In this document: positions 18,280-19,319 of the stretch, piece by piece
Layout of the letters: the number at the start of each line of letters is the position of its first letter
Position numbering within the stretch: the stretch's first letter is position 1
Notes under the pieces: generated by a model
The model's input: the letters and a program-made list of their open reading frames with translations, nothing else
Told to the model about the DNA's origin: nothing
Database searches by the model: none
NCBI GenBank assembly: GCA_030681615.1
Contig: JAUXSA010000120.1
Span: forward strand, 1-33,814
Length of the DNA stretch: 33,814 nt
Source: Bacteroidota bacterium
GTDB lineage: Bacteria; Bacteroidota; Bacteroidia; B-17B0; Aurantibacillaceae
Direction: 5' to 3'
Translations under genes and position numbers: made by a program

Positions 18280-18585
18280 ATGTTTGGAAAAATGGGCGAT
18301 ATGCTGGGCAAACTCCAGGAGATGAAGCAAAAAGCTGACGAGATAAAAAGTAAACTCGATGGCATTACATTAAATGTTGAAGGTGCCGGTGGCGATATTA
18401 AAATTGAAATTACCGGTAACCGAAGAATAAAGAATATTAAAATTGCAGCAGCTTTACAACATGGCAGCAAAGAAGAATTGGAAGAACAATTAACAGTTAC
18501 GGTTAATAAAGCTATTGAAGCTGCCGATAAATTAAACGAAGAAGAAATGAAAAAAGCGGCCGGCGGTTTATTGCCCGGCTTATAA
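18280..18585 (+). CDS. ybaB: YbaB/EbfC family nucleoid-associated protein
   Basis: A small (101 residues) DNA-binding protein that forms tweezer-like dimers and bridges or coats DNA. The N-terminal helix MFGKMGDMLGKLQEMKQKADEIKSKL, the central strand segment VEGAGGDIKIEITGNRRIKNIKI and the C-terminal helix plus AGGLLPGL are typical. The gene follows nadE by 6 bases, so they probably share a promoter. In many bacteria ybaB sits beside recR or dnaX; neither is here. Directly after its stop comes the cloverleaf palindromic element. Confidence 0.93.
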   Translation: MFGKMGDMLGKLQEMKQKADEIKSKLDGITLNVEGAGGDIKIEITGNRRIKNIKIAAALQHGSKEELEEQLTVTVNKAIEAADKLNEEEMKKAAGGLLPGL

Positions 18586-18595
18586 ATTATTTTAA

Positions 18596-18717
18596 ACTGT
18601 CAGTTCGAGTGATTTTTCGCTTTGTCTCTTGCGAAAAATTGTATCGAGAACTTGATATCGATAAATGTCTTCTCGATACATCTTTTGCTCTCGCAAAAGC
18701 TTACTCGAAGTGACAGT
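18596..18717. repeat. Cloverleaf-forming palindromic intergenic element (122 bp)
   Basis: The outer arms 18596-18610 and 18703-18717 pair over 15 positions with one mismatch. Inside are three consecutive perfect hairpins: TTTTTCGC / GCGAAAAA (18613-18620, 18631-18638), TGTATCGAGAA / TTCTCGATACA (18640-18650, 18670-18680) and CTTTTGC / GCAAAAG (18682-18688, 18693-18699). Only a few bases stay unpaired at the junction. The sequence style (TTCGAGTG, TATCGAGAA) resembles dispersed palindromic repeats I recall from Bacteroidota genomes. It lies between ybaB and the gamma-carbonic-anhydrase-like gene. It has no reading frame and no tRNA features. Confidence 0.8.
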
Positions 18718-18755
18718 TGCTTAAAGAAAATTAAAAATTTTTAAAATAAACACCT

Positions 18756-19268
18756 ATGGCAACTATTTTACCCGTAAAAGGCATCTCCCCAAAATTAGGA
18801 GAAAATTGTTTTGTAGCCCCCAACGCCACTATTGTTGGTGATGTGGTAATGGGTAACGAATGCAGCGTTTGGTTCAACGCTGTTATTCGTGGTGATGTAA
18901 ATAGTATTCGCATTGGTAACAAGGTAAATATTCAGGACGGAGCAGTGTTGCATTGCACCTATCAAAAAACAAAAGTAAGTTTAGGTAATAATGTTTCTAT
19001 TGGTCATAATGCCATTGTACATGGCTGCACGGTGCATGATAATGTGTTAATTGGTATGGGCGCCATTGTAATGGATAATTGCGAGATAGGAAGTAACACT
19101 ATTATTGCTGCCGGTGCAGTTGTAACGGAAGGAACTATAGTGCCCAGTGGTTGTATATTTGCAGGTGTGCCCGCAAAAAAAGTAAAAGATATTTCGCAGG
19201 AATTGATAAACGGTGAAATTGACAGAATAGCAAATAATTATCTAATGTACAGCAGTTGGTTTAAATAA
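18756..19268 (+). CDS. Gamma-carbonic-anhydrase-like hexapeptide repeat protein
   Basis: A 170-residue left-handed beta-helix protein of the YrdA/PaaY/gamma-CA group. Hexapeptide repeats run from about residue 18 to 140 (FVAPNATIVGDVVMG, VSIGHNAIVHGC, VLIGMGAIVMDNCEIGSNTIIAAGAVV, GVPAKKVKDIS). The three zinc-ligand histidines of the family are present (His66, His84, His89). Members include true carbonic anhydrases, thioesterases and ferripyochelin-binding-like proteins, so the reaction is uncertain. The catalytic glutamates of archaeal Cam are not obvious. The ATG at 18756 fits the family start (ILPVKGISPKLGENCFVAPNA). A strong bidirectional terminator follows. Confidence 0.9.
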   Translation: MATILPVKGISPKLGENCFVAPNATIVGDVVMGNECSVWFNAVIRGDVNSIRIGNKVNIQDGAVLHCTYQKTKVSLGNNVSIGHNAIVHGCTVHDNVLIGMGAIVMDNCEIGSNTIIAAGAVVTEGTIVPSGCIFAGVPAKKVKDISQELINGEIDRIANNYLMYSSWFK

Positions 19269-19283
19269 AAATAAATTTAAAAT

Positions 19284-19319
19284 AAAAGCCCAAAAGAAAA
19301 TTTTCTTTTGGGCTTTTTG
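19284..19319. terminator. Bidirectional intrinsic terminator
   Basis: A perfect 17-bp inverted repeat (19284-19300 and 19301-19317, core AAAAGCCCAAAAGAAAA) has T-rich tails on both strands. It lies between the convergent gamma-CA-like and Ig-repeat adhesin genes and should end both transcripts. It is the only strong terminator among the convergent junctions in the window. Confidence 0.92.

Follow-up and report, generated by a model that had tools for sequence, protein, structure and literature searches.

A head-to-head pair of tagged TCGAGT hairpin units is probably a non-autonomous REP-like mobile repeat of Bacteroidota and Actinomycetota

The structured spacer behind ybaB in a Bacteroidota bacterium holds two inverted copies of one hairpin unit of about 45 nt, as a side-by-side comparison of copies reveals, and its cloverleaf shape is not the underlying design. 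The element occupies positions 18598-18715 of the window, by which we mean the whole stretch of DNA analysed, 33,814 nt long and a complete contig of a 4.28-Mb draft genome. It lies between ybaB/ebfC (18280-18585, + strand; YbaB_DNA_bd, Pfam PF02575, E 3.2e-17) and a gene for a hexapeptide-repeat protein (18756-19268, + strand; Pfam Hexapep, E 1e-22), which we take to be gamma carbonic anhydrase-like. On balance, we favor reading it as a mobile, non-autonomous repeat of REP-like kind in which two GTCA-tagged hairpins stand head to head, probably recognised as folded single-stranded DNA. Its anatomy and mobility, as set out below, we hold with high confidence, whereas the single-stranded-DNA mechanism is offered as a tentative proposal.

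Read 5' to 3', each unit consists of the tag GTCA, a doublet X2X1, the segment TCGAGT, a tip hairpin, TATCGAGA, and a closing doublet X1'X2'. In the window, the left unit (18603-18651, + strand; GT-TCGAGT-tip hairpin at 18611-18641-TATCGAGA-AC) is preceded by its tag at 18599-18602 on the same strand, and beyond a spacer at 18652-18668 the right unit follows the same design on the opposite strand (18669-18710, - strand; CT-TCGAGT-tip hairpin-TATCGAGA-AG), with its tag at 18711-18714 (- strand), which reads TGAC on the + strand. The two units thus form an inverted (HH) pair with tags outside. The lower stem of the unit is the variable doublet plus TC/GA, followed by G.A mismatches. The tip hairpin can have nearly any sequence, its arms being 8-46 nt long and most of them with a hairpin of their own, and TCGAGT and GTATCGAGA are conserved. 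The tag is well defined in low-GC hosts, where positions -6 to -3 are G in 291, T in 296, C in 293, and A in 263 of 305 units, preceded at position -7 by T or C in 290. High-GC hosts have a different tag, with G at -5 in 54 of 57 units and no GTC.

A prominent feature of the unit is that its doublet is free to change as long as it pairs with itself. Among 404 distinct units, X1 and X1' are paired in 393 and X2 and X2' in 370, as compared with 231 and 177 expected when partners are reshuffled, while the position adjoining the doublet is near chance (151 paired against 137 expected). With the units clustered to 100, the two doublet positions still pair in 95 and 90. The same holds in an alignment of 74 units, a hand cut of 90 random draws from the 152 units whose arms measure 14-24 nt, from which 16 were omitted, mostly as the second unit of a locus. 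Here 99.5% of the cells are paired, a value reached by none of 500 shuffles, and all four Watson-Crick types occur at the two pairs. Sliding the alignment lowers the paired fraction to 22-33% towards the 3' end and to 56-61% the opposite way, and the next pair outward is unpaired in 40 of 73 units. Covariation says little for high-GC hosts, since their doublet is almost always GG.

The first-pass annotation had described the element as a four-way cloverleaf whose intact stems suggest selection for structure or recent mobility. The fold itself is sound: on the + strand, positions 18595-18718 form a 16-pair outer stem that has one G.G mismatch and encloses three hairpins of 9, 11 (with five further pairs past a small bulge), and 7 pairs around a junction nearly without unpaired bases. 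The predicted RNA energy of 18590-18725 on this strand is -55.4 kcal/mol, as compared with -25.5 +/- 3.4 kcal/mol for 200 shuffles (z -8.9), and the minus-strand fold has a z of -7.0. The cloverleaf is also the more stable RNA fold of the whole strand (-53.5 kcal/mol, against -15.0 and -13.9 kcal/mol for the separate units), which speaks against our reading. However, selection for the cloverleaf is not supported, as the covarying pairs lie within each half-element and break it. When the ends of 145 full elements are compared, the end doublets differ in 106, and in these elements unit pairs are kept in 404 of 424 cases and cloverleaf pairs in 176 of 424. In the genome of the window, 18 strict full elements keep all 72 unit pairs and only 20 of the 72 cloverleaf pairs that the same bases could form. 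In particular, the X2 cloverleaf pair is formed in none of these 18 elements, although about 8 would be expected, and the G.G mismatch of the outer stem is informative because it sits at this very doublet position, where the ends are never complementary. What is preserved is thus the hairpin of every single unit, and a cloverleaf arises once two such units are paired in inverted orientation.

The two ends also show an asymmetry in base type at X2. Across 115 elements of low-GC hosts, they are purine and pyrimidine in 68, both purine in 39, and both pyrimidine in 8, and in high-GC hosts purines occupy both ends in 27 of 30 elements; a founder effect is a possible source of this asymmetry. In several copies in the genome of the window, as well as at loci L002, L009, and L081, the tip-hairpin loops within one element are complementary (GCCTCTT/AAGAGGC). 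Such loops would allow a kissing contact, or their complementarity may reflect only the shared descent of the two units.

Several more familiar identities were dropped. A tRNA search of the window found none, which removes tRNA and tmRNA, and no Rfam family matches the window at its gathering threshold. A terminator scan gave no match at the element, so it is not a simple terminator, and plasmid or phage cargo was set aside as blastn at E 1e-5 returned no match. A terminator-like bidirectional hairpin does lie elsewhere in the window, at 19284-19317, where the hexapeptide-repeat gene and the Por-secretion-tail gene converge.

Beyond base pairing, the units share a structural code that is biased to one strand. 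With the doublet stem formed, the conserved CGAG segments oppose each other as C-G, G.A, A.G, and G-C, which gives tandem G.A mismatches. Tandem G.A in such a CGAG-facing-CGAG context forms stable sheared pairs, and sheared G.A pairs also occur in RNA. GNA triloops are a DNA-type loop. Tandem G.A recurs in the variable arms, in 68 of 363 as compared with 5.6 after shuffling and 4 on the opposite strand, and in the high-GC arms in 27 of 57 (0.8 shuffled, 0 opposite strand). Among the 12 mismatch pairs tried, A.G (15 against 6.0 shuffled) and A.A (22 against 9.5) show a weaker excess. GNA triloops are found in 93 of 306 low-GC arms (28 opposite strand, 37 shuffled) and in 18 of 57 high-GC arms (0 and 10, respectively), and GNRA tetraloops in 49 of 306 arms (22 and 19). 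With the arms clustered to 100, tandem G.A remains in 18, against 2.1 shuffled, 2.0 with swapped halves, and 3 on the opposite strand, and the longest perfect stem measures 5.5 against 3.5. Only a small excess of tandem G.A is seen in the 14 high-GC arms of this clustered set (7 against 3.0 with swapped halves), and their stems are no longer than with swapped halves. The bias to the unit strand, together with the DNA-type loops, points to folded single-stranded DNA, and these sequence patterns suggest that the unit is recognised in this form, though the enriched GNRA tetraloops would suit RNA as well.

That the element inserts can be seen from its absence in orthologous spacers at two sites. 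The locus of the downstream gene was fetched from 29 relatives; ybaB lies upstream on the same strand in 15 and is not within 1,500 bases in the other 14, and in all 15 that share this gene order the element is missing between the two genes. The ybaB spacer measures 170 bp here and 2-20 bp in 11 of the 15 relatives, including 10 bp in the nearest one, whose proteins are 97-98% identical; it is 71 bp in one relative and 444 bp with an apparent extra gene in another. In two more (97 and 101 bp; loci L279 and L280 of genomes G019 and G012), it is occupied by another repeat, of the CCACTAAG type, so more than one kind of insertion enters this spacer. A second element site was searched in eight relatives, two of which were not judgeable: the spacer is 120-124 bp here and 8-12 bp in four relatives, a fifth shows 48 bp of diverged sequence that lacks the element, and the last, G025 (L308), has a 356-bp stretch of other sequence in its place. 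No target-site duplication or exact end is readable at these sites, because the empty spacers have diverged. The suggestion of the first-pass annotation that the element is non-autonomous and REP-like is supported, with insertion at this locus in this lineage.

The positions of the elements relative to genes bear on another explanation, namely that the element is a transcribed structured RNA, such as an mRNA 3'-end stabiliser, a processing site, or an attenuator, which is kept for its RNA fold. We regard this as unlikely, while granting that it has several observations on its side: the strong RNA fold of both strands, the place of the element between co-directional genes in the window, a median distance of 29.5 nt past the preceding stop codon among 38 elements that lie between tandem genes, the enriched GNRA tetraloops, and the fact that RNA, too, accommodates sheared G.A pairs. 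Nevertheless, the RNA fold of lowest energy is at odds with the covarying pairs, elements face both ways with respect to genes (9 versus 6), the orthologous spacer is empty of the element in every relative with the same gene order, and GNA triloops are enriched on the unit strand as well. A specific RNA or RNase-site role, as once proposed for this spacer, finds no positive support. Elements in the genome of the window are placed between tandem genes in 10 cases, between convergent genes in 4, and between divergent genes in none, with 4 at locus edges, and for the 86 elements of low-GC hosts the corresponding numbers are 19 tandem, 21 convergent, and 4 divergent. In high-GC hosts, 13 of 30 elements fall within a predicted frame of at least 100 aa, which may or may not be real.

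To return to the mobile repeat that we favor, it is widely dispersed, in keeping with the initial view of it as a TTCGAG-type element. In the genome of the window, blastn finds it at 15 places, and its central palindrome occurs in 21 copies, as compared with none for the reversed control pattern. Of 395 genomes from the window's phylum, taken as Bacteroidota, 38 also contain the palindrome, although single matches there may be chance, and blastn matches were obtained in 17 of 60 genomes, the own genome included, and in 2 of 24 genera, with at most 14 candidates scored per genome. Counts of strict unit matches in 28 chosen genomes, for which reversed controls gave 0 or 1 per strand, amount to 43 in the genome of the window (reversed pattern 0), 113 in G035, and 672 in Rathayibacter sp. 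VKM Ac-2856. Among the matches listed, at least 118 stretches of named genomes, the hosts are mainly Flavobacteriia, other Bacteroidota bins, and Actinomycetota; the single matches listed in Sphingomonas, Roseomonas, Alphaproteobacteria, Chloroflexi, Fibrobacteria, and Dojkabacteria may be mis-binned contigs or chance. HH dimers predominate in the genome of the window, where the 18 strict full elements make 36 units as against 43 strict units counted, and this predominance refers to that genome only, as other hosts were sampled with a pair-selecting pattern. At L179, L188, L197, and L257, two to four near-identical elements form tandem arrays with a spacing of about 120 to 355 bp, so copies multiply locally too.

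What moves these elements is a separate matter. The first-pass annotation had pointed to a REP-type Y1 transposase, and one may argue that the element is a REPIN moved by a Y1 TnpAREP/RAYT enzyme encoded elsewhere in the genome: it is a head-to-head pair of tagged hairpins, as REPINs are, its genome has two Y1_Tnp genes, and a Bacteroidetes TnpAREP subclass, 2.6, is described with atypical structures (PMC6006769; compared here by its text description only). We find this very unlikely. Both Y1_Tnp genes of the own genome (L016:1420-2010 on C27 and L017:1390-2130 on C63) have other palindromes on either side, of the types GCCACGACC..GGTCGTGG and GCTCC..GGAGC. By motif only, the L016 gene resembles subclass 1.2, which the available text of the same report describes as generally lacking typical terminal structures (PMC6006769). 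Y1_Tnp matches were obtained at 76 places in 25 genomes, the own genome with its two included, and 69 of these loci were fetched and scanned for units. An exact unit is present at only one, L132, a one-sided match at the locus edge, some 1.5 kb away from a Y1 frame that is broken by a stop. Relaxed units with one mismatch per half give 13 matches at the 69 loci as compared with 14 for the reversed control, which argues for no association between units and Y1 genes. Moreover, among 17 named element-bearing genomes examined, all with records of unstated completeness, Y1_Tnp has 5 and 2 matches in the two Flavobacteriia and none in the 15 of Actinomycetota. The REP-Y1 association was dropped on these grounds, and we infer that, for actinobacterial hosts at the least, the mobilising enzyme is of a kind other than the Y1 (IS200/TnpAREP) transposases. 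Among 740 predicted proteins around 151 element cores, no companion gene family occurs in more than 4 of 118 loci, the best cluster being an ABC ATPase near elements in 4. A classical MITE with terminal inverted repeats and a DDE transposase would account for the inverted ends TGTCA..TCGAGT and the insertion polymorphism in intergenic spacers, yet we find it very unlikely: the doublet makes the ends variable, and they change together with internal bases, which recognition of double-stranded ends does not predict. No target duplication is readable, as the empty spacers have diverged, and no gene family recurs beside the cores, though a MITE transposase need not adjoin its element.

The closest known kind of repeat is the CGTC-tagged REPs, which, in the available text of their description, combine tags outside, a hairpin body, presence in several phyla, and no associated transposase (Di Nocera et al. 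2013, PMC3733652). All of these are shared by the element described here: its 5' tag in low-GC hosts is CGTC/TGTC, its dimers have tags outside, it has a hairpin body and occurs in several phyla, and neither the Y1 searches nor the neighboring gene families associate it with a transposase. The published set of tags (CGTC, TGTC, or CCTC) covers the low-GC hosts and none of the 57 high-GC units. However, the stem of CGTC REPs is given in that text as 8-9 bp starting with complementary AT and their loops as 4-5 nt, whereas the unit here has a free covarying doublet plus TC/GA and long, variable tips, carries the conserved TCGAGT and GTATCGAGA, and abounds in Actinomycetota too, with a differing tag. 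Since the stem and loop rules differ, we do not file the element as a member of the CGTC REPs and treat it as a variant of that kind. For CGTC REPs an unpaired tail, mostly CCA, is described in addition. Among the papers listed by motif letters or topic, and at the level of titles and abstract openings, there was no description of the TCGAGT unit. A CGTC-type family, CGTCATTGCGA..GCAAT, occurs in 25 of the 118 genomes searched from this phylum, the own genome included, with four copies there (C25:8019, C123:8084, C142:17291, and C183:36262), and by eye it resembles the TCGAGT units in its tag, lower stem, GA facing GA, and swappable tip. In G057, the two repeat types stand side by side (C1:791606-792895).

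Two better known systems are alike in part. GTAG REPs and REPINs with a RAYT (TnpAREP) likewise consist of small hairpins that carry a tag, form inverted pairs, and sit in intergenic DNA, for the most part behind genes. In contrast, the foot of the unit here has no GTRG (GT[AG]G), its tag in low-GC hosts being GTCA, none of the 69 scanned loci has a Y1 gene flanked by units, and units abound in the 15 actinobacterial genomes that gave no Y1_Tnp match. IS200/IS605 ends, which are recognised as single-stranded DNA, share with the unit a strand-specific imperfect hairpin and a 5' tetranucleotide; they differ from the element here, which has no transposase gene and whose two hairpins are inverted, not on one strand.

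In the mechanism we propose, an enzyme or host protein would bind the unit while it is folded in single-stranded DNA, such as the lagging-strand template, and would read its shape and tag instead of a fixed sequence. The same factor would move the hairpin pair, which has inserted into short intergenic spacers, in the genome of the window close behind stop codons. A broader version, which we put forward with more doubt than the mechanism itself, is that TCGAG units and CGTC REPs form one superfamily of tagged hairpins that spans phyla and is moved as single-stranded DNA by an enzyme other than Y1, which reads its shape; sheared tandem G.A, GNA loops, and a self-complementary doublet would be the cues, leaving sequence and tip free to vary.

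In summary, the TCGAGT-unit family offers a larger and cleaner data set on how transposase-less CGTC-type REPs, as far as the available text describes them (PMC3733652), move. It combines unit matches that run into the hundreds in single genomes where Y1_Tnp has no match with empty sites that document insertion and a structural code that is testable in vitro, and the search for the mobiliser becomes a problem of co-occurrence and pull-down.
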